Shown here piece by piece: positions 1 through 17,766 of a stretch of 36,180 nt of DNA. The number at the start of each line of letters is the position of its first letter. The first letter of the stretch is position 1. The notes under the pieces are model-generated. The model saw only the letters and a program-made list of their open reading frames with translations. It was not told the origin of the DNA and did not search any database. The position numbers and the translations under genes are program-made. The stretch comes from Synechococcus sp. UW140 (GTDB lineage Bacteria; Cyanobacteriota; Cyanobacteriia; PCC-6307; Cyanobiaceae), in NCBI GenBank assembly GCA_945875915.1, contig CAMCMT010000026.1, forward strand, positions 1 to 36,180, read 5' to 3'.

Positions 1-1
1 A

Positions 2-780
2 AACCTGGGTGGATCAGGTAGCACCAACTTAGGCAATCAATCCCTCACTATCACAGATGCTGCGGGCCTTAACAGCGGAGTGATTTCTGGCCAAGGTGGA
101 TCCTTAGCGATCAATGGCACTGGTACCTACAGCCTCAGTGGCATCAATACCTATACCGGTTCCACGACCATCGGCAGTGGTGAAACCCTGGCCCTGTTGG
201 GTAGTGGTTCCATCGCTGCCTCCAGTGGAATCACCAACAGCGGCAACTTTTCCCTTGCTGGCGCCACCAGCACCGTCTTCCTGACAAACCTGGGTGGCTC
301 TGGTTCCACTAACTTGGGCAATCAATCCCTCACTATCACAGATGCTGCGGGCCTTAACAGCGGAGTGATTTCTGGCCAAGGTGGATCCTTAGCGATCAAT
401 GGCACTGGTACCTACAGCCTCAGTGGCATCAATACCTATACCGGTTCCACGACCATCGGCACTGGTGAAACCCTGGCCCTGTTGGGTAGTGGTTCCATCG
501 CTGCCTCTAGCGGAGTCAGCAACAGCGGCAACTTGTCCATTGCCGGCGCCACAAGCCCCGTATCTCTGACCAACCTGATCGGATCTGGCAGCACCAACCT
601 TGGCAGCCAATCGCTAACCATCACAGCTGCCTCCGGTCTGAACAGTGGCGTCATCTCAGGGACTGGTGGTTCCTTGGTTGTGAACGGTTCAGGCACTTAC
701 AGCCTCTCTGGCTCCAGCACCTACACCGGTGCCACCAGCCTGGGCGGTCCAGCAACCCTCCAGGTATCAGGTTCCATCGC
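2..780 (+). repeat. 285-bp in-frame tandem repeats in the autotransporter passenger
   Basis: Copies begin at 2, 287 and 572, each at an AAC codon followed by CTG, giving an exact 285-bp (95-residue) period. Copies 1 and 2 are almost identical through their central part (about 31-215 and 316-500). The third copy is diverged and decays after about 730. The array probably continues upstream of the window. Near-identity at silent positions points to recent duplication or gene conversion. Confidence 0.9.
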
Positions 781-7233: not shown

Positions 7234-9576
7234 TCAGACAGTGGTTTCATAGAGATACTTTTGGAAGCTTGAAAAGAGCTGGCTGATGGCTTCTGGCTTC
7301 CCCAGATCTGCCACGGCATCGGCAATGCTATTTTGATAGCGGAGGCGTAGCAGCGGAGTGAGTTTGTCTTGGGCGAGCTCCTGCACGCCCATGGTGACGT
7401 AATGCTGGAGCACAAAATCCAGGAAGAGCTGCTGCTTGCTGGTGCACTTGGAATGGATGTAGAGGCGGGCCTGGCCGGCTCGCGCCTCCCGGGGGATCGG
7501 CTGCAGGGCATAGGCCACGTGGGCCAAGACATCAAACAGATCGCTGTTCTCCGCATCGATGAGCGACTGCATCTCGGCCAGTTGGGCTGCACCGAAGCCC
7601 TTGTCAGCCAGGCCCTGGAGCAGCTTGCTGCGGGTGGCCGGCGAACTCCAGAGCGCCCGCAGTTCCGCTTCATCGCGCACGAATTCCGGCAACTTGCCAT
7701 AGAGCAGTTCCAGGAACTGCTGCGAACTCATGGGGGTGCCATCGGGGTGCCAGAAGCTGGTCACCGTCATGTGCTGGATGGAGCGTTCCTTGCCGTCGCC
7801 CAGCTTGATGCGGGCTTTGGATCGGCGGGGCTTGCCAGTGGTGTCGTCCTCGCCGTTGGGCTGCTTGGCTTCGGGCGGATCGGTGGGCGGCTGGGGCGGA
7901 CGCGGGGCGACCTCTTCGGGCTCCTGGGGTTCGCCGTCCCACTCCGGATCACTGAAATGGTGATGGGCTTTGACGAAGTCATAGAGGGTGAAATAGTCCT
8001 TGCCGTCGTAGAGGCGGGTGCCCCGGCCGATGATCTGCTTGAACTCGATCATCGAATTCACCGGCCGCAGCAGCACGATGTTGCGCACGTTGCGGGCATC
8101 GACGCCGGTGGAGAGTTTTTGCGAGGTGGTGAGGATGGTGGGGATCGTCTTCTCGTTGTCCTGGAAGGCGCGCAGCCAGGTGTTGCCCAGTTCCCCATCC
8201 GCAGCGGTGACCCGGTGGCAGTAGTTGGGATCGGGGCTGCTCTTGCGCTGGTTGATCAGGTCGCGGATCGCTAGGGCGTGGTCCTGGGTGGCGCAGAACA
8301 CGATCGTTTTTTGGCGCTGATCAATCTGCTCCATGACAATCTCCACCCGCTGCTGCTCGCGCTGTTTGATTTCGATGATGCGGTTGAAGTCGGCCTCCTT
8401 GTAAACCTTGCCGGCTTCAATCTCGCCGTCCACCACCGTGTCATCGGGGGTGTAGATGTATTCATCGAGGGTGGTGGTGATTTGCTTGACGCGGAAGGGC
8501 GTCAGGAAGCCGTCGTTGATGCCCTCCTTGAGGGAGTAGGTGAACACCGGTTCGCCGAAGTAGGCGTAGGTATCGCGGTTGTCCGTGCGGCGCGGGGTGG
8601 CGGTGAGGCCGAGTTGGACGGCGGGGGCGAAGTGGTCAAGGATGCCGCGCCAGGTGGATTCGTTGTTGGCGCCGCCGCGGTGGCATTCATCGATCACGAT
8701 GACATCAAAGAAATCGGCCGGGTACTGGCCAAACCAGGGCGAGGGCTTGCCATCCACCGGCGGGCCGCTCATGAAGGTTTGGAAGATGGTGAGGAACAGG
8801 CTGGCATTGGTGGGCACCCGGCCCTGCTTGCGCAGGGCATCCGGTTCGAGGCGGGCCAGGGCGTTGTCTTCGAAGGCGGCAAACCCGGTGAAATCGTTGA
8901 AGGCTTGATCGGCGAGGGTGTTGCGATCGGCCAGAAACAGGATGCGGGGCCGGCGGCTGGGTTGGCCAGAGCGGTTCCAGCGGGCGGCAAACAGCTTCCA
9001 GAGGATCTGGAAAGCAATTGAGGTTTTGCCGGTGCCGGTGGCAAGGGTGAGCAGGATGCGATCGCGGCCGGAAGCAATCGCCTCCAGCACCCGCTGCACG
9101 GCAATGTCTTGGTAAAAGCGGATCTGCCAGCTGCCGCCCTTGTCGGGATAGGGGATGGCGGCGAAGCGATCCCGCCAGGCGTTCTCCTCGGCAAAGGTGC
9201 GCTCCCACAGCTCCTGGGGGCTGGGGAAGGCTTCAGCCTCGCCCTCCTCGCCCGTGGCCATGTCGATGGCGTAAACGCCGAGGCCGTTGCTGGCGTAGGT
9301 GAAGCGCAGTTGCAATTTGCCGGCGTAGTCCTTCGCCTGGGCCACGCCTTCGCTGAGGGGCGCGGTGTTCGGCTTGGCCTCCACCACCGCCAACTGGGTG
9401 TTGCGGTAGGTGAGCACGTAGTCGGCCGTGAGCGGTTTGCCGCGGCGGCCGCCCCCTTCGATCCGGCCCGGGGTGATCGAAAACTCGCGCCGGATGCGGC
9501 TGCCCTCCACCACACCCCAACCGGCGGCGGCCAGCAATGGATCGATCAGTTCGGCGCGGGTTTCGGCCTCGTTCAT
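7234..9576 (-). CDS. hsdR: Type I restriction enzyme, R subunit (HsdR)
   Basis: HsdR is the ATP-dependent DNA translocase and nuclease of a type I restriction system. The N-terminal nuclease core shows Asp52, then VVEAK with Glu66 and Lys68, a PD-(D/E)XK arrangement. Helicase motifs follow: Walker A ATGTGKTSIAF at about 179-189, DECHRGG at about 296-302, GLTATPRRTDN and the motif VI QIIGRGTRLYDG. A Pro/Glu/Lys-rich linker precedes the C-terminal domain that docks to the methylase. The length of 780 residues fits the shorter EcoAI-like HsdR group. The ATG at 9576 overlaps, as ATGA, the stop of a small upstream ORF. Unlike the usual layout, it is separated from hsdM/hsdS by an ATPase gene and an NTase gene. 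Confidence 0.95.
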   Translation of the reverse strand: MNEAETRAELIDPLLAAAGWGVVEGSRIRREFSITPGRIEGGGRRGKPLTADYVLTYRNTQLAVVEAKPNTAPLSEGVAQAKDYAGKLQLRFTYASNGLGVYAIDMATGEEGEAEAFPSPQELWERTFAEENAWRDRFAAIPYPDKGGSWQIRFYQDIAVQRVLEAIASGRDRILLTLATGTGKTSIAFQILWKLFAARWNRSGQPSRRPRILFLADRNTLADQAFNDFTGFAAFEDNALARLEPDALRKQGRVPTNASLFLTIFQTFMSGPPVDGKPSPWFGQYPADFFDVIVIDECHRGGANNESTWRGILDHFAPAVQLGLTATPRRTDNRDTYAYFGEPVFTYSLKEGINDGFLTPFRVKQITTTLDEYIYTPDDTVVDGEIEAGKVYKEADFNRIIEIKQREQQRVEIVMEQIDQRQKTIVFCATQDHALAIRDLINQRKSSPDPNYCHRVTAADGELGNTWLRAFQDNEKTIPTILTTSQKLSTGVDARNVRNIVLLRPVNSMIEFKQIIGRGTRLYDGKDYFTLYDFVKAHHHFSDPEWDGEPQEPEEVAPRPPQPPTDPPEAKQPNGEDDTTGKPRRSKARIKLGDGKERSIQHMTVTSFWHPDGTPMSSQQFLELLYGKLPEFVRDEAELRALWSSPATRSKLLQGLADKGFGAAQLAEMQSLIDAENSDLFDVLAHVAYALQPIPREARAGQARLYIHSKCTSKQQLFLDFVLQHYVTMGVQELAQDKLTPLLRLRYQNSIADAVADLGKPEAISQLFSSFQKYLYETTV

Positions 9577-9772
9577 CGGATCAGGGAGTCCATGGGATCA
9601 AGCTGTTCCGCGCCGAGTGGGTTCCAGACGCTGCGCTCGAACTGTTCCCCATCCGATTTTTTGTTGTAGCGCCACACCACGGCATCCAGGGTGAAACATC
9701 TCGGGCCAACGCGGAGCCCAGATCGCGGTTGGCGATGCGCAGAAAACCATTGGGGGACTCAGCCGGCGCCAT
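9573..9772 (-). pseudogene. Small coupled ORF upstream of hsdR, apparently frameshifted
   Basis: An ATG at 9772, inside the 3' end of the nucleotidyltransferase gene, opens a frame reading MAPAESPNGFLRIANRDLGS and on through ALARD. A different frame then reads CFTLDAVVWRYNKKSDGEQF and continues as charged, protein-like sequence. That second frame ends with a TGA overlapping the hsdR ATG. Joining the two near 9690-9698 requires a shift of one base. The start overlap with the NTase and the ATGA junction with hsdR suggest a translationally coupled gene of about 66 codons. If no shift exists, the first frame alone makes 62 residues ending at 9581. No family is recognised. Confidence 0.35.
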
Positions 9773-10190
9773 GCAGCGTCTCCACTGGCTCCAGCTGCCG
9801 GCCATAGCGAAAGGCCTCGGCAATTACATTGATCCGTCCATGCTGCCGATCCTCCACTTCACTGGCGGAGAAGAGCAATAACTCAATCGGCAAACGATGG
9901 TGGGCCAGCGTCCACCCCAAGGCGTCCGTTTCCTCAAACCGCGAATGGCACGCCAGCCAGGCATCCGGCACGGTGACCAGCAGATCAAGGTCCGAATCGG
10001 GCCGTTCGGTGCCGCGGGCGCGGGAGCCGAACAGGCGCACCTGGGCACCTGGAATGGCCGCCTGGATCTCGGCCGCGATCGTGCGCAGCAGCGGTTCATC
10101 CACGACGTAGTGATAGTTGGAGGGGCGGGAAGAGGCGCTCATGGGATCAGTTTGACGTGGGTTGGCTGGCTTTGTCTCCTGCTTGATCAC
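9759..10190 (-). CDS. MNT-type minimal nucleotidyltransferase
   Basis: This small Pol-beta-superfamily nucleotidyltransferase carries the diagnostic VRLFGSRARGTERPDSDLDL stretch: the GSxARG loop and the DxD metal site, with a later acidic residue in LPIELLLF. The GTG at 10190 overlaps the stop of the upstream ATPase gene as GTGA, which favours it as start (143 residues). An ATG at 10142 is the alternative (127 residues). Minimal NTases usually pair with a HEPN partner as a toxin-antitoxin in which the NTase AMPylates or otherwise silences the HEPN RNase. No adjacent canonical HEPN gene is present, although a HEPN-like protein lies at the far end of the island. Substrate unknown. Confidence 0.82.
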   Translation of the reverse strand: MIKQETKPANPRQTDPMSASSRPSNYHYVVDEPLLRTIAAEIQAAIPGAQVRLFGSRARGTERPDSDLDLLVTVPDAWLACHSRFEETDALGWTLAHHRLPIELLLFSASEVEDRQHGRINVIAEAFRYGRQLEPVETLHGAG

Positions 10191-11455
10191 GGCGCCAGTG
10201 CCCCCACCGGCACCACGGCGATGCCATCCGGCCGCCGGTAGCCATAGCCGCTGCCGCAGACCACCGCCAGGAAGGCGGGTTCGCCGCTGCGGCGGGTGTC
10301 GATCTGCTGGCGAAAGCGCAGCAGGCTGGCGGCGGCGGCCTCCACCTGGCCCGGGCCGAGCTTGATCTCGATCGCCCCCCAGCGGCCATCGCGGAGCTGC
10401 ACGATCGCGTCCACTTCGATGCCGTAGTCGTCGCGGTAGTGGAACAGCTCACCGTCCAGCGCCTGGGCCAGCACCCGCAGGTCGCGGATCACCAGGGACT
10501 CGAACAGCAAGCCCAGCCACTCCAGATCCTTGAGCAGGCGATCGGGGCTGCCGCCCAGGGCCGCCACCGCCAGGGAGGGGTCGCAGAAGTGGCGCCGGGG
10601 TGCCTGGCGCAGGGCCGCCTTGGACCGCAGGTGGGGCCGCCAGGCGGGCTGGCTTTCGAGCACCATCAGCCGCTCCAGGGCCTGGAGGTGGTCGGCCACG
10701 GTGCGCGGGTCGAGGGGCCCATCGGCGCCGCCGGCATCGGCCGCCAGGGTGGACAGCTTCACCTCGGTGGCGACGTTGCGGCCGAGGGAGCGCAGCAGGG
10801 CCCCCAGCCGCTGGGGATCCCGCCGCCGCCCATCCAGCCGCTGCACGTCCACCTGGCGCACCTGCTCCAGGTAATCGCGGGCGGCCCGGCAGGCCGCCGC
10901 CAGGGGCCGCTCCAGCTGGGCCGGCCAGCCGCCACGGCACACCAGCTCGGCCAGATCGGCCAGCGTCAGCCCCGGATCGGCGCAGCTCGGCGGATCCCCC
11001 GCCAGTAGCGCCGCCAGCGAGACGCCGCCCTGGCCGGCGCCACTTTCCACCAGGCCCATGGGCCGGAGCCGCAGAAAGGAGAAGCGCCCAGCCCCGGTGT
11101 GGCGCTCGGCGTCATCGGCCGGCACCGCCGAACCGGTGAGTAGAAATTGCCCCGGCGCCTCGGCGGCATCCACGGCCCGCCGCACTTGGTTCCAGAGCGC
11201 CGGCGTCACTTGCCACTCATCCAGCAGGCGCGGCCGGGGCCCCGCCAGCACCAGGGCTGGATCCACCGCCAGGGCCTGGCGGGCGGCGTTGTCCACATCC
11301 AGCAGCACCGTGGAGGCGGCCAGCTGCTGGGCCAGGCGGGTTTTGCCACAGGCTTTCGGGCCCTCGATCACCACCGCGCCGGCGGCGTCCAGGCAGGCGC
11401 GCAGCTCGGCATCGGCGATGCGGGGTCGGTAGGCCAAGCCTTTGCTGGCGGCCAT
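10187..11455 (-). CDS. AAA_14 / DUF4143 family ATPase
   Basis: This 422-residue protein has an N-terminal AAA ATPase with Walker A IEGPKACGKTRLA (about 30-42), Walker B-like RLLDEWQ (about 76-82) and sensor FLLTGSAV. A C-terminal DUF4143 domain contains YGIEVDAIV...WGAIEIKLG, a PD-(D/E)XK-like core (about Asp349, Glu363, Lys365). Family members are common in accessory and defence regions but their function is poorly known; the nuclease-like core suggests nucleic-acid or regulatory roles. The stop overlaps the NTase start. Four phased 23-bp repeats begin 14 nt upstream of the ATG. The intact gene between hsdS and the NTase-hsdR pair looks like a cassette within the restriction operon. Confidence 0.85.
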   Translation of the reverse strand: MAASKGLAYRPRIADAELRACLDAAGAVVIEGPKACGKTRLAQQLAASTVLLDVDNAARQALAVDPALVLAGPRPRLLDEWQVTPALWNQVRRAVDAAEAPGQFLLTGSAVPADDAERHTGAGRFSFLRLRPMGLVESGAGQGGVSLAALLAGDPPSCADPGLTLADLAELVCRGGWPAQLERPLAAACRAARDYLEQVRQVDVQRLDGRRRDPQRLGALLRSLGRNVATEVKLSTLAADAGGADGPLDPRTVADHLQALERLMVLESQPAWRPHLRSKAALRQAPRRHFCDPSLAVAALGGSPDRLLKDLEWLGLLFESLVIRDLRVLAQALDGELFHYRDDYGIEVDAIVQLRDGRWGAIEIKLGPGQVEAAAASLLRFRQQIDTRRSGEPAFLAVVCGSGYGYRRPDGIAVVPVGALAP

Positions 11456-11468
11456 GGCGGGGCGCGCA

Positions 11469-11560
11469 ATGCAGGAGATACCGGGATTCTAATGCAGAAA
11501 AAACTGGCCTTCTGATGCAGAAAAAAGGGGTCTTTTGATGCGGGAAAAACTGCCTTGCCA
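11469..11560 (-). promoter_or_regulatory. Four direct repeats on an exact 23-bp period upstream of the DUF4143 ATPase gene
   Basis: ATGCAG/ATGCGG hexamers start at 11469, 11492, 11515 and 11538 (plus-strand coordinates), exactly 23 bp apart. The middle two extend to ATGCAGAAAAAA and the last reads ATGCGGGAAAAA. The array ends 14 bp before the ATPase start codon on the minus strand, where a promoter or operator would lie. The spacing is about two helical turns, so protein bound to each unit would sit on nearly the same face. Autoregulation by an island-encoded protein is inference. Confidence 0.6.
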
Positions 11561-11669
11561 AGGCCGGAAACGATCGGGCGGCTGGGGGTGTGCTCATGGG
11601 GATGGCGAATCGACCTGGGCTCCGCCTCCCCATCGCTCACGCTCTCCCCACCGGCGCGCCCGCCACGGC

Positions 11670-12785
11670 TCAGAGCTCGCCGTTGAAGGCCTGGTGCAGG
11701 AGGGACTTCTTCAGTTCCTCCAGGGCGGCGAGTTTGCGTTCGTAGAGGCGGGTGAGGTGTTGGGTTGCTTCCTGAAGTTCCTCAACTCCATTGACAATCC
11801 TTGCCTGCTCCTCAACCCATTCTGGAATCGGTATTGGTATCGCGTTCAGCGCCCTCTGGTTGAGCTTTGGCTGTGCGGCGCCTGTGATGAATTCATCAAG
11901 CTTGATACTTTCTAAATAGAACTCGACGAACCGCTGGGTCGCCATGCTCTCAAAATGTAGAATGTGTGCGTGGTTATTGACCCAGTATCTGCCGGTTGCT
12001 GAGAACGCAATGGGCGTCGATCTCGCCAGCAGATTCGCTCCGTCTTCAGAAACCAACAGATTGTCGCCCTCGAAAATATAGTCCGCTACGTAATCCACAA
12101 TGCCTGACGCACCGTAGTAGGGATACTCGCCACTGCTTCGGACGTTCTTAGTTATTGGAACTCGCCTGCTGTCGAGGTTGGTCGAAATCTTGTCTAGCGT
12201 CGTTACCTCCCACCCCTCCCCCCGCTGACTGAAGACGGATTGAAGATGACTTTCAAAGATCGCGCGTGTGCTCTGGAGGTTCCGTTCGGCGTTGGCTTTG
12301 GCGGTGGCGAGGCCCGCAAACGCTTCGTCCAGGAGGGCGACGATTCGCTGTTGCTCGGGGAAGGAGGCAACTGCCAACGGCAAGTCCTCGATTTCCGATT
12401 TGTTGATGGAGGCAAATACAGCTCCTTCCTTCCCGGCTATTTTAGGCTGCAAATGAAGTAACTGATAGAACAGAAAATCCTTGCTGATCTCAGGCTTTGA
12501 GCGGATCGCAGCCAGTCCACGCCCTATACAGATTTCCTCAGTGGCAAAATTGACTGGTCCGACTGGTGCTCGGACAGACATCAGGATGTCACCTGCTCGC
12601 GCAACCTTTGTTATGTGAGTGGTCCAAGTTGACGGTGTTTTTATAAATATGTCACCAAAGTCCTTCTTGCCCTGGTAGAATGGCAATCCTTCCCCTTGGG
12701 AATTGTAGAATTGACCCTCTGGCGATTGCCCAGAGATAACTTCGCAATAATCACCAATTGTGCTGATCTGCCAACCTTCCCTCAT
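11670..12785 (-). CDS. hsdS: Type I restriction specificity subunit (HsdS)
   Basis: HsdS supplies DNA sequence recognition to both the methyltransferase and the restriction complex. The 371 residues show the two-repeat plan. TRD1 is at about 1-140, followed by a helical spacer starting at the FPEQQRIVALLDEAF box and continuing through LATAKANAERNLQS. TRD2 runs from about WEVTTLDKIS, and the distal spacer from WVEEQARIV ends in LEELKKSLLHQAFNGEL, a standard HsdS C-terminus. The ATG at 12785 overlaps the hsdM stop (ATGA). TRD-coding segments (about 11820-12180 and 12430-12780) are visibly AT-richer than the spacers, typical of TRD exchange. The recognised sequence cannot be predicted. Confidence 0.94.
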   Translation of the reverse strand: MREGWQISTIGDYCEVISGQSPEGQFYNSQGEGLPFYQGKKDFGDIFIKTPSTWTTHITKVARAGDILMSVRAPVGPVNFATEEICIGRGLAAIRSKPEISKDFLFYQLLHLQPKIAGKEGAVFASINKSEIEDLPLAVASFPEQQRIVALLDEAFAGLATAKANAERNLQSTRAIFESHLQSVFSQRGEGWEVTTLDKISTNLDSRRVPITKNVRSSGEYPYYGASGIVDYVADYIFEGDNLLVSEDGANLLARSTPIAFSATGRYWVNNHAHILHFESMATQRFVEFYLESIKLDEFITGAAQPKLNQRALNAIPIPIPEWVEEQARIVNGVEELQEATQHLTRLYERKLAALEELKKSLLHQAFNGEL

Positions 12786-14569
12786 ACCAACTCCCTGATC
12801 CTCCCCAGCACGTCCGCACTATCCGCATCCAGCGCCGCAATCTCCGCCATGATCTCCTGCGGGCTCCGCAGCGCCACCGCCTCACCAGCATTAGGATTTT
12901 TCACCGAGAGGTCCCAGCTCTCTGGATCAATGGAGTCCGCCGCCATACTCCAGCTCTTGGCCGAGTCAGCAAACGTCTTCTGCTGCTCCACAAAGTCCGC
13001 CAGATCGCGGTCGTTGAGTGGGTTGGTCTTGCCCAGGTTGCGGCCGGGATCGAGCTGGTAAAACCACACCTGGCGGGTGGGCGCGCCCTTCTCGAAGAAC
13101 AGCACCACCGTTTTCACCCCGGCCCCCTGGAAGGTGCCGCCGGGGCAGTCGAGTACCGTGTGCAGGTTGCACTCGCTCAGCAACTTCTGACGCAGGGCCA
13201 CCGAGGCGTTGTCGGTGTTGGAAAGGAAGGTGTTCTTGATTACCACGCCGGCGCGGCCCCCGGCCCGCAGCCGGCGGATGATGTGCTGCAGAAATAGAAA
13301 GGCGGTTTCGCCGCTGCGAATCTCGAAATTCTGCTGCACCTCCTTGCGTTCACTGCCGCCAAAGGGTGGGTTGGCCAGGATCACATCGAAACGGTCTTTC
13401 TCCTGCACATCGCTGAGGTTTTCGGTGAGGGTGTTGGTGTGCAACACCTTGGGCGCTTCAATGCCATGCAGGATCATGTTCATGATCGCCATCACATAGG
13501 CGAGGCTCTTCTTCTCCTTGCCCGTGAAGGTGCCCTGTTGCAGGGTTTCTAGATCGCTGGTGCTGAGTTCCGCCTTCGCGGCCCCGCCCTTGCGCAGGAA
13601 TTCGAAGGCTTCGCAGAGGAAGCCCGCCGAGCCCACGGCTGGGTCATAAACCGTTTCGCCGATGTGGGGGTTCACCACCTGCACGATGGCGCGAATCAGG
13701 GGCCGGGGCGTGTAATACTCACCGCCGTTGCGGCCGGCGTTGCCCATGCGCTTGATCTTTTCCTCATAGAGCATCGAGAGCTCGTGCTTCTCGGCCTGGG
13801 AGCGAAAGCGCAGGCCATCGATCACATTGATGATTTCGCGCAGGTTGTAGCCGCTGCTGATCTTGTTGCGAATTTCGCCGAAGATCTCGCCGATCTTGTA
13901 TTCGATCGTGTTTGGCCCGCTGGCGTTCTGTTTGAAGCCCTCCAGGTAGGGAAACAGGCGCTGGTTTACAACGTCGCGCAGGTCGTCGCCGGTGAGGGCG
14001 GCGTGGTGATCGAGCTCGCCGCTGGCGGTTTTCGGGGCCGCCCAGCTGTTCCAGCGGTAGGCCTCTTCCAGGATGGGCGTAGAGCTGCGGCCTTCGAGGG
14101 CCGCCACGGCGGCCTTGTCGTCTTCGAGCCCGTCGAGGTATTTAAGGAACAGCAGCCAGGAGGTTTGCTCGGTGTAGTCGAGCTCGGTGCCGCAGCCGGC
14201 CTCCTTGCGCAGGCAATCGTCGATGGCGCGAAACGCCTGCTCAAAGGAACTGGCCGCTGCCGCCCGGGGCCCTTTGGCGGCGCGGCTGGCAGGCGCAGGC
14301 CGGTTGCCCTGGCCCAGGCCTGGGCCCTCCTGCCCCGACCCATCCGCCAGGGCCACCGAGCCGCCCCGACCGCGGCCAGGCACGATCAGTCTGCGGCCCA
14401 GCAGGTCAGCCTTCACCGCTTCGTAGCTCGCCTCGTCCCACTCCAGGGTCTCCCGCAGGCGGCCATTGCCCGCCGCTCCCCCCAAGGCGGCCAGGGCGCC
14501 AAGAAACTCGTCGTGGCGGTCGTCGCTGCTGACGGCGTCGCTCTGGTGGCTTTCAGCGGCGTAGGTCAA
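12782..14569 (-). CDS. hsdM: Type I N6-adenine methyltransferase subunit (HsdM) with N-terminal extension
   Basis: HsdM methylates adenine in the site read by HsdS. Motif I VYDPAVGSAGFL lies at about 307-318 and the catalytic motif IV ANPPFGG at about 399-405. The helical N-terminal HsdM domain (about 108-270) carries the expected TSWLLFLKYLDGLED. Residues 1-75 form an extra predicted winged-helix-like segment (DEFLGALAALGG, then LLGRRLIVPGRG), joined by a Gly/Pro/Ala-rich linker at about 76-106. Total length is 595 residues, longer than a minimal HsdM. It is the first gene of the restriction operon, followed by hsdS with a 4-nt overlap. The preceding 226 nt (14570-14795) is AT-rich and should hold the promoter. 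Confidence 0.94.
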   Translation of the reverse strand: MTYAAESHQSDAVSSDDRHDEFLGALAALGGAAGNGRLRETLEWDEASYEAVKADLLGRRLIVPGRGRGGSVALADGSGQEGPGLGQGNRPAPASRAAKGPRAAAASSFEQAFRAIDDCLRKEAGCGTELDYTEQTSWLLFLKYLDGLEDDKAAVAALEGRSSTPILEEAYRWNSWAAPKTASGELDHHAALTGDDLRDVVNQRLFPYLEGFKQNASGPNTIEYKIGEIFGEIRNKISSGYNLREIINVIDGLRFRSQAEKHELSMLYEEKIKRMGNAGRNGGEYYTPRPLIRAIVQVVNPHIGETVYDPAVGSAGFLCEAFEFLRKGGAAKAELSTSDLETLQQGTFTGKEKKSLAYVMAIMNMILHGIEAPKVLHTNTLTENLSDVQEKDRFDVILANPPFGGSERKEVQQNFEIRSGETAFLFLQHIIRRLRAGGRAGVVIKNTFLSNTDNASVALRQKLLSECNLHTVLDCPGGTFQGAGVKTVVLFFEKGAPTRQVWFYQLDPGRNLGKTNPLNDRDLADFVEQQKTFADSAKSWSMAADSIDPESWDLSVKNPNAGEAVALRSPQEIMAEIAALDADSADVLGRIRELV

Positions 14570-14795: not shown

Positions 14796-16238
14796 TTAGC
14801 TATTTAGGGGCCATTGAAGAATAGGATCCATTAGCTCCCTAAACTCTCGCCGAACATTTGCTTTATAGGCATTTTTGACGTCGGAGGCTAAATAGTGCAA
14901 TGCTTGCTTTAGTCGCTCTGAGATTGCAATTTGCTCTAATATCTGTAACACTTCATGCAGGTGCTCTTGGCAAGTTGGATTCCTAAGCTTTGAGTTTAGC
15001 TCGGGCTTGTATAAAGTTGCGATGCATTCAGTAATGCCTTCATCGTCTAGTAATCCAAAAAACTTATCATAAAGAGGGAGTCCGCTTGGGCTTACTCCAC
15101 GGCGATACGAGAGCCCCCGGCCAAGCCGGCAGCGTAGAACGATTTGGACCAAGCTTGAAAGAGCATCATGCGGTATATCGGCTGACGATCTAAAGTATTG
15201 AAGAATATCCTTCATTATGCTTGGCTCATGGTAATAGTTGTCCCTGCCATTGTGTGCATCTTCTAAATCGTCGGCGAGCTTTTGAAGGGCGATGTTGCGA
15301 GACGGAAGTGATTCGTACATTAGGCCTCCTACAAGCTTAAGAAACTCAACGCCTTTCTCAAGTTTTTCTTGGTGAAGATTGGTGCGATAGCTGTCAATTG
15401 TTACCCCAATCTTGTATTTAATATTGTCGCTTGAGAATTGCCAGATAGTTGGAGATATTTCAGCGATATTTTTGCGCAAAACTTGGCCCGAGCTAGGGTC
15501 TACAAAAATTCCAAATGACGTCATAAGTAAATTATTTACATGAGCAGGAGATAGGTTCTTGAGCTCTGATTGAAGACGTATAAGTGATGCATGGTCAATC
15601 ACGTCGCTTCTGGTCTTTAAATTGTTGACAAGGGCCTTAATCTTTATTGCAGACTCGGATGGTTTCTCCTGCAACACATCCTTTACGCATGTTTGTAGCC
15701 ACCCCAGTAGCTCGAACCCTCCGATTGACTCTACATTTGGGTGAGATGCAGCTATCTCGTTCCGCATTGTAAGAATATTGTCTAATTTGATAAATACAAT
15801 ATCTGAGATGAGCTCAAGCTTCATGCAGGATTCGAGAAGCACTGTGTCTTTAAGGCCGGATAAATCATCTTCGATATTGAAAGTTTCTCGATTTTTCCCG
15901 CCAACAGCAGCGTCAAAAAACAGATCAACGCCGTAAATTATTGCTTTCTTTCTTAGGCAGAGTACAACTTCATTCCATACGTAGTTCAGCGCTGCATCAA
16001 ATAAGCCGATTGCTGTAGCGCCAACAAATTTAGATAGATAGCAGGCGTCTTTCTTTACGTCTGATGGAAGAGTTGAGAGGAAGCTGGGGAGGTTGGCGGC
16101 AATAACGCCCCTTTCTTCCGTTGTGGCAATTATGTTTTCGGTTGGCAGTCCAAACTGCTCCAAGTATGCCGCGAAAACACTTGATTCTGCGGCAAGTTGT
16201 GCAGGCCTAACTGGTTCGATTGATTCCTTGTTCGTCAT
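14796..16238 (-). CDS. HEPN-like protein of the defence island (function inferred)
   Basis: This 480-residue protein starts at the ATG at 16238 (MTNKESIEPVRP); a longer frame reaches 16337 but its first 33 residues look non-coding. I do not recognise the full-length family. The segment at about 70-170 is helical and ends in ILTMRNEIAASHP, where Arg159 and His166 fit the Rx4-6H signature of HEPN ribonucleases at the place such a motif falls after two long helices. The rest is helical with no other motif. Base composition is much AT-richer than hsdM next door, suggesting separate acquisition. Placement upstream of hsdM, same strand, hints at an abortive-infection or regulatory RNase; this is inference. 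Confidence 0.6.
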   Translation of the reverse strand: MTNKESIEPVRPAQLAAESSVFAAYLEQFGLPTENIIATTEERGVIAANLPSFLSTLPSDVKKDACYLSKFVGATAIGLFDAALNYVWNEVVLCLRKKAIIYGVDLFFDAAVGGKNRETFNIEDDLSGLKDTVLLESCMKLELISDIVFIKLDNILTMRNEIAASHPNVESIGGFELLGWLQTCVKDVLQEKPSESAIKIKALVNNLKTRSDVIDHASLIRLQSELKNLSPAHVNNLLMTSFGIFVDPSSGQVLRKNIAEISPTIWQFSSDNIKYKIGVTIDSYRTNLHQEKLEKGVEFLKLVGGLMYESLPSRNIALQKLADDLEDAHNGRDNYYHEPSIMKDILQYFRSSADIPHDALSSLVQIVLRCRLGRGLSYRRGVSPSGLPLYDKFFGLLDDEGITECIATLYKPELNSKLRNPTCQEHLHEVLQILEQIAISERLKQALHYLASDVKNAYKANVRREFRELMDPILQWPLNS

Positions 16239-16845
16239 GGTACTAAACAGGGGGGTCCAGTAAATGAAGGGTTGATTGTGGCTTAAACGGAATAATCTTC
16301 GATAATTGGTTGGATTGGCATGGCCTATGGGTGCCAATCAACTCCGCTCAGTTTAGCCTTGTGCCTCGCTTGCTTCGTAAATACCCATAGCTTTGTTCCC
16401 TCCGCTACCAAGCAGCCCGTCTTGTCGGCTTGTGTCTAGGGGTAGCAGTTGGGCGTGGTGGGTATAGACCATGGGCGACTTGGAGCACTGCTGCCCTGTC
16501 GCAGTCCTGCCGGTTCGGACGGCCTGGCCGTGCAGTAGCTGGTGGCCGACGAGGCTTGGTGGAAGGTGCAGTTGGTGGTTGGCAATCGAAGATCTGGGAC
16601 GCAACCCAGCGAGCCATGGCGGCCAAAACAGGGCCCTGGGCCCCAACTACGGGGCAGCCCAGCTGCCCGGGTGATCCCCACCCTCCCTGATGGCTTGCCT
16701 TGGCGCAGGCCGCCCCACGGCTCTTCCTGTTGGGCCCTCGATGGTTAGCCCCCTGACACGCGAGTCGGGTGGCTGCAGAGTGCTGCCCTCGCCCTGGGCC
16801 CGATCGGCGCCGGATGCTTGCATGGTTTCCACCCCGTAGCTGCCC
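16239..16845. other. Intergenic stretch between the defence island and the DUF4079 gene
   Basis: About 600 bp with no convincing gene. The left third (to about 16390) is AT-richer and likely holds the promoter of the HEPN-like gene. The right part is host-like GC; short open frames there on both strands show no conserved motif. I see no tRNA, insertion sequence or obvious direct repeat marking the island edge. Confidence 0.4.
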
Positions 16846-17766
16846 ATGGCGCCGATCGACTGGCTGGCGTTGCTGCACCCAGTGCTGATCATTCTGTTCG
16901 TCTACCCGGTGGTGGGGGCGACGATCCGGCTGGGGATCCTGGCGCGGGAGCGGCGGCTCAAGATCAATCCCCTGCCCCCAAGTGTGGGCATTGAGCATGG
17001 CGACCACGGCCGCTGGCTCACCGGTGGCGTTGTGCTGGCCGTGCTGATCGCCCTCGATTACAGCTTTATCAAGCACTTTCTCGATCCGGCCCCACCCTTC
17101 GCCGGCGGTGCGGCCCGGCTGGCCTTGCTGCTGCTGATCAGCGCTGGCACCCTGCTGGCCTACGCGGCCCTGTGGTTCGTGAAGAAAGCCCGCCTGCGGG
17201 CCAGCTTTGCCCTGCTCACCTGGGCCGGCCTGCTGGGCCTGGGCAGCCAGAAGGAGATTTGGCGCCTGAGCGATAACCCGCTCACCGGCGAGTTCTGGGG
17301 CTCCCATTACTGGGCGGGTGTGTTGCTCACGGGCTTGCTGCTGTTCTCGGTGGCGGCCCGCAGCGAGGTGCTGCGCTCCCTGCGCATGCGCCGCCTGCAT
17401 GTCACAGCCAACGTGCTGGTGGCCGTGTTGCTGGCCGTGATGGCGATCACCGGCACCCGCGATTTGTTGCAAATACCCCCCAGCTGGCAGGCGTCGGCCC
17501 TGGGCGGTTGTGATCACGTCACCTTGAAGTGCGCCCCCACCATCTCCCCCGAGGCCTTCCGCCAGGCCCTGGATCGGGCCGTTAAGGAAGCCCTGGGCAA
17601 GCGGGGTCCCATGGCCCTGGCTGCTCCCGCCGGAGGTCCGGCTGGCGACTCCCCCGAGGCCGCTGCCATGAACCAGGCCGCTGCCGCGAACCAGGCCTCA
17701 GCCAAGAACCAGGCCGCCGCCCTGCCCCCTGCGGCCCTGGCCCCGGGCTTGCTGGCTCCCGCCTAA
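16846..17766 (+). CDS. DUF4079 family membrane protein
   Basis: The 306-residue protein has several predicted membrane helices: LLHPVLIILFVYPVVGATI near the N-terminus, WLTGGVVLAVLIAL, LALLLLISAGTLLAYAAL, YWAGVLLTGLLLFSVAA and VLVAVLLAVMAITGTRDLL. The order and the motifs GSQKEIWRLSDNP, FWGSHYW and TGTRDLLQIP recall cyanobacterial DUF4079 proteins, whose function is unknown; some ferric-reductase-like topology has been suggested for similar families. After about residue 240 the tail is Ala/Pro-rich with NQAAA-type repeats and is probably disordered. The gene is convergent with dus. A 370-residue open frame on the opposite strand is a shadow. Confidence 0.7.
   Translation: MAPIDWLALLHPVLIILFVYPVVGATIRLGILARERRLKINPLPPSVGIEHGDHGRWLTGGVVLAVLIALDYSFIKHFLDPAPPFAGGAARLALLLLISAGTLLAYAALWFVKKARLRASFALLTWAGLLGLGSQKEIWRLSDNPLTGEFWGSHYWAGVLLTGLLLFSVAARSEVLRSLRMRRLHVTANVLVAVLLAVMAITGTRDLLQIPPSWQASALGGCDHVTLKCAPTISPEAFRQALDRAVKEALGKRGPMALAAPAGGPAGDSPEAAAMNQAAAANQASAKNQAAALPPAALAPGLLAPA

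Follow-up and report, generated by a model that had tools for sequence, protein, structure and literature searches.

Plasmid Rep genes, which encode winged-helix initiators, are preceded by direct repeats of about 20-22 base pairs (bp), the iterons, and are self-repressed, also via inverted half-sites. A further case is that of RptR, a small separate regulator with a conserved TAGCTA site, which acts on the direct-repeat operator of type I restriction-modification (R-M) defence islands (PMC12255303), so that direct-repeat operators as such are already known. The DUF4143/COG1373 ATPases, termed PDC-S01, form a single-gene phage-defence candidate of the 'guilt-by-embedding' set of Payne et al. 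2024; their genes reportedly number in the tens of thousands across bacteria and archaea, PDC-S01 is described as fourth in frequency among prokaryotic defences, and validation is pending for most such candidates (PMC12988326). Here we describe an array of four 23-bp direct repeats immediately before a DUF4143 gene in a 36,180-nucleotide stretch of Synechococcus sp. UW140 (contig CAMCMT010000026.1, positions 1 to 36,180; hereafter the window), where gene and array sit inside a type I R-M locus. We consider it probable, at roughly 0.7, that the array is a gene-borne operator, which the DUF4143 protein itself would bind cooperatively so as to autorepress its own promoter.

Like the RptR operator, the array consists of direct repeats at the putative promoter of a defence locus associated with type I R-M, but DUF4143 arrays come without an evident extra regulator, and their site varies among homologues under a conserved spacing. 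The likeness to Rep iterons is that of a winged-helix protein gene preceded by direct repeats, the difference being that the DUF4143 array is placed on the promoter of a predicted ATPase-nuclease; no sign of a replication role or of an origin came to light, no search having been aimed at them. The window protein resembles PDC-S01 in its profile matches, its ATPase and PD-(D/E)XK composition and its embedding in a type I R-M locus, whereas the words 'promoter', 'operator' and 'inverted repeat' are absent from the main text of the survey (PMC12988326). No description of arrays at DUF4143 genes was found in the searchable literature, which is weak evidence as subscription papers and preprints lie largely outside it.

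The array occupies 11469-11560, directly upstream of the minus-strand AAA_14+DUF4143 gene (11455-10187), and is composed as follows.

11538-11560, minus strand: repeat copy 1 (distal), core CCCGCATCAAAAG; outer edge of the conserved unit, at about which the homology of relatives starts
11515-11537, minus strand: repeat copy 2, core TTTTTTCTGCATCAGAAG
11492-11514, minus strand: repeat copy 3, core TTTTTTCTGCATTAG, adjoining the -10-like hexamer
11486-11491, minus strand: -10-like TAGAAT, inside the array, a putative -10 element
11469-11491, minus strand: repeat copy 4 (proximal), core CTGCATTGC, in the presumed leader
10187-11455, minus strand: AAA_14+DUF4143 protein of 422 amino acids, PADLOC PDC-S01

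The four units are contiguous and, read in the direction of the gene, conform to about CCAGTTTTTTCTGCATCAGAAGG; their CAT cores fall at -85, -62, -39 and -16 relative to the ATG, and copy 3 has CATTAGAAT in place of CATCAGAAG. The initial annotation had pointed to phased hexamers, and these (ATGCAG, ATGCAG, ATGCAG and ATGCGG, starting at 11469, 11492, 11515 and 11538) are present with a spacing of exactly 23 bp. The repeat unit, however, is the whole 23 bp and thus longer than the hexamer: shifted by 23, the array matches itself at 0.64, and shifted by 46 at 0.59, other lags giving about 0.2-0.4, and Tandem Repeats Finder independently returned 11487-11556 with a period of 23 and 3.1 copies. 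The A-tract said to extend two of the hexamers is found in three copies, and the proximal hexamer is separated from the start codon by 13 bases, where 14 bp had been given. That nothing else in the window has this structure was nearly right; four near-identical hexamers at constant spacing also occur at 17655, 21399 and 24576, and none of these places was conspicuous as an array lying right before a gene. A CRISPR array was rejected, the window units being contiguous at 23 bp without unique spacers, as was a structured RNA, the only Rfam matches in the window being three tRNAs. A weak terminator-like hairpin on the minus strand (11552-11564), whose T-run is the T-tract of the distal repeat, could end hsdMS transcription.

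Repeats of the same phase, for which the initial annotation had proposed to look, are found upstream of other DUF4143 genes. The clade to which the window protein belongs was represented by 79 loci from Cyanobacteriota, Bacteroidota, Clostridia-class genomes, Actinomycetota, Chlorobiota and Lactobacillales, with protein identities of 28-94%, and periods were scored by a three-copy statistic against shuffled sequence (z>4). The best upstream period is 23 bp in 71 of these loci as compared to 1 of 268 control open reading frames (ORFs), no other period is best in more than 2 of the 79, and the arrays hold about 3-7 copies. Homologues occur in 39 of 200 genomes of the window organism's order, and nearly all full-length near homologues (72-94% identity) carry the 23-bp phase upstream; their arrays fall into two sequence classes, TTTTTCCTGCATCAGAAG and CGGCAAAAGCAGCATCA, and the DNA further upstream is mostly unrelated. 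Within the window clade the copies have diverged and yet remain in phase, each copy position keeping its own letters. Seven plasmid-borne homologues (28-45% identity) from Bacteroides, Collinsella, Prosthecochloris, Actinomyces and Lentilactobacillus, that is, from Bacteroidota, Actinomycetota, Chlorobiota and Bacillota, all have 23 as the best period (one tied with 46) with unrelated repeat sequences. A further non-cyanobacterial set of 56 loci, drawn mostly from two genome groups, one being the order of a Muribaculaceae genome, the other the class of an Eubacteriales genome, gave a best period of 23 in 46 loci and of 46 in one. The Thermus locus L318, judged by eye, has no obvious 23-bp array. 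A Thermus DUF4143 gene, TT_P0211, which could not be tied to L318, is 6.6-fold up when an Ago+ strain carries a plasmid (PMC4406477), which hints at inducible expression.

Under this constant spacing, the sequence of the repeat differs in nearly every homologue of the clade. Below 50% protein identity, repeat similarity is no higher than background (about 0.41); at identities of at least 80% it reaches 0.66. Paralogues within one genome have different repeats at the same 23-bp spacing, with the exception of one identical duplicate pair, and close homologues in different genomes share theirs (for example, L196/L213 and L191/L194).

The arrays are also placed consistently with respect to promoters. 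The Bacteroides -7 box TAnnTTTG lies at most 95 bp from the start in 26 of 31 Bacteroidota-type loci (6% expected), and the arrays of this type, with a median of about four copies, end a median of 4 bp before it. The array thus covers the -33 region in Bacteroidota, and a protein bound there would obstruct RNA polymerase. Overlap with a promoter is suggested in the window by the -10-like element only, for which most cyanobacterial relatives have TAGRRT/TAAGAT at the corresponding position, and only after the CATTA copy; a sigma-70 scan of the array region of the window gave no promoter above threshold.

Comparison of flanks indicates the extent of the unit. In pairwise comparisons of relatives, upstream homology often starts about 98-103 bp before the start codon, which is the position of the distal copy, and downstream homology often stops at or near the stop codon; no neighbour family is common to more than 9 of 80 loci, and the flanks differ. 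Locus L172 lacks both array and gene and is 89-93% identical to the flanks of L011. The occupied site of L011 reads GGCCCAACC / TTTTCTGCGTTAAATGG, followed by the gene and GCGCTGGCGCC / ATGACC, whereas the empty site of L172 reads GGCCCAGCCCTGGACACCATGACGG; the site (about 1396-2729) lies at the ATGA stop/start overlap of two host genes. From this single case, with diverged flanks, the inserted unit appears to be the array plus the gene. The array is on one side only, without evident target duplication, at this one site where diverged flanks obscure the exact joint and any such duplication. The initial annotation's view that the DUF4143 ATPase has an operator-like array of its own is supported, given that the array is found in about 90% of clade homologues at the same spacing, lies over or next to the promoter and moves together with the gene. 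Decayed DUF4143 copies are common. Solo arrays were considered as independent elements and rejected: L311 and L312 are relics in which the array and the first codons are kept and the gene interior is deleted, and L142, L150 and L155 look like remnants near HsdR/nucleotidyltransferase (NTase) genes. The viral contigs hold no relative of the window DUF4143 protein, and DUF4143 genes are present in five to eleven unannotated records of faecal 'phage'.

Beyond the clade, the association of DUF4143 genes with upstream repeats persists in other geometries. An upstream inverted or direct repeat with z>3 is present at 64% of 80 DUF4143 loci from bacteria and archaea; among 160 control ORFs the share is 8% (Mann-Whitney p about 4e-21, nominal only because the loci are related). 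The 33-bp palindrome GGACAAATTGTAAATTATATTGACAATATGTCC directly upstream of the DUF4143 start in the archaeon Methanoculleus (L068) is nearly identical to GGACAAATTGTAAATCATATTGACAATTTGTCC at the same place in a bacterium of the Omnitrophota (L065), which argues against a host regulator. Several repeats of other clades overlap a -35 box, as in L072, where TTGACA is followed after 17 bases by TATACT and a few bases later by ATG. The L040-like clade has 33-bp direct repeats (16 of 36 loci), and the L059-like clade has palindromes beside TTGACA in a quarter of its loci (z>3). The window's own genome holds a second DUF4143 gene (L317, contig C27) with the palindrome AAAAGTCGCGACTTTT directly before its ATG. 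Several DUF4143 clades with differing geometries coexist in single genomes such as G602, suggesting that the geometry follows the protein rather than the host.

The window protein is the candidate defence protein PDC-S01, matching the PADLOC profile PDLC04790 with an E-value of 1.8e-66 and the Pfam families DUF4143 (109.7 bits, cut-off 28.1) and AAA_14 (39.9 bits, cut-off 27). It models as a STAND-like ATPase (residues about 1-200), a winged helix (about 205-300) and a PD-(D/E)XK nuclease (about 303-422) in an AlphaFold2 model built from a 79-sequence alignment (predicted local distance difference test, pLDDT, 88.8; predicted template modelling score, pTM, 0.90), in which the winged-helix-like segment comprises helices 214-226, 234-240 and 250-262. 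The best structural matches of residues 1-302 are the archaeal ATPases 2qen (Z 15.5, root-mean-square deviation (rmsd) 4.6 over 259 residues) and 2fna, followed by CED-4 (2a5y_C; Z 13.1, rmsd 4.7 over 250 residues) and the NB-ARC cores of plant NLRs. Residues G37, K38, D79 and E80 (Walker A/B), D349 and K365 are invariant, and E347 and E363 nearly so. The C-terminal part is barely covered by structural matches, and its assignment as a nuclease rests on these conserved residues (ExD at 347-349, ExK at 363-365) and on PMC12988326. In the presumed recognition helix, positions 250, 251 and 254 are variable around the nearly invariant T252 and Y256.

Since only the gene and the array are common to the hosts, the simplest binder is the DUF4143 protein. 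The constant 23-bp spacing under a changing sequence suggests that protein-protein contacts between neighbours set the spacing, and the position of the array on the promoter suggests autorepression. We envisage that the protein would bind via its winged helix, with one protomer (or dimer) per 23-bp unit, contacts between neighbouring proteins fixing the spacing and a quickly evolving contact surface fixing the sequence. The bound protein would block its own promoter until titrated or activated, perhaps with release on infection, and a potentially toxic ATPase-nuclease would thereby be kept at a low level. As each homologue has its own address, paralogues in one cell would, we propose, not cross-regulate. 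Several observations weigh against this reading. Winged helices of STAND proteins frequently do not bind DNA, exposed residues vary in any case, which limits the argument from the helix, and no -35 can be recognised for the window gene. Repeat similarity correlates with protein similarity at 0.34 for the AAA domain, 0.25 for the winged-helix domain and 0.14 for the nuclease, which leaves the winged helix unsupported as the sole determinant of the repeat sequence; these values are descriptive, as pairs are non-independent, the cyanobacterial set weighs in and common descent contributes. The array may also serve activation in place of repression.

A possible though rather unlikely extension of this reading is that the array, beyond being an off-switch, is an assembly scaffold, on which an inactive ATPase-nuclease oligomer would be stored at its own DNA address until a change of nucleotide state or DNA occupancy at infection released and induced it. 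The spacing would then be set by the protein, and the sequence would be a private key diversifying to keep paralogues apart; with one protomer per 23 bp, each would be turned by about 69 degrees (at 10.5 bp per turn), close to the 60-degree step of a hexameric AAA+ ring. We regard it as unlikely that a separate host or island factor, like RptR at type I R-M islands, binds the array and that the gene was merely captured under it. Such a factor would fit the motifs that some close pairs share across hosts, but paralogues in one genome differ in repeat sequence at unchanged spacing, no neighbour gene is shared, one clade has a near-identical operator in archaea and bacteria, and the TAGCTA palindromes of the RptR site are absent from 11469-11560.

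The sharp start of upstream homology at the distal repeat, its frequent downstream end near the stop codon, the clean empty site at an ATGA gene junction and the common decayed copies would all suit a single-gene mobile element, whose recognition end would be the array, with the ATPase-nuclease moving array and gene and any promoter role being secondary. We nevertheless find this explanation quite improbable, as the one empty site has a repeat on one side only and shows no evident duplication of the target, arrays track promoters, the palindromes of other DUF4143 clades sit on -35 boxes in place of such arrays, and ordinary recombination shuffling defence islands can yield the same flanks. Functionless tandem repeats born of replication slippage or chance are hardly tenable: copies are near-identical in some loci (for example, L196 and L197), but a length of 23 bp that recurs in several phyla while the sequences differ is not what slippage would produce. 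The contrast between clade loci and control ORFs contradicts this explanation, and the window-clade copies, which have diverged while keeping phase and position-specific letters, also speak against it.

For a very common, unstudied, predicted anti-virus gene, an array with clade-fixed spacing and homologue-specific sequence is a first biochemical handle, offering a candidate DNA ligand per protein. It suggests self-control as part of the DUF4143 system, and the DUF4143 arrays amount to a large natural collection of candidates for orthogonal protein-operator pairs.

The neighbouring genes of the window locus are the following.

7234-9576, minus strand: HsdR, EcoAI/FtnUII family, host locus context
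9759-10190, minus strand: NTase-domain protein, weakly MntA-like, a neighbour and not a conserved array partner
11670-12785, minus strand: HsdS specificity subunit, host locus context
12782-14569, minus strand: HsdM methyltransferase, host locus context

The NTase is disfavoured as a partner or binder of the array because the array persists where the gene downstream of DUF4143 is not the NTase (for example, L003, L006, L009 and L010). Beside the R-M genes, a 513-amino-acid ORF (14796-16337) without a Pfam or NCBIfam match is a possible further defence-island gene. At the edge of the window (1-735), imperfect 285-bp tandem repeats open a 1063-amino-acid ORF, apparently that of a repeat protein cut by the window edge.
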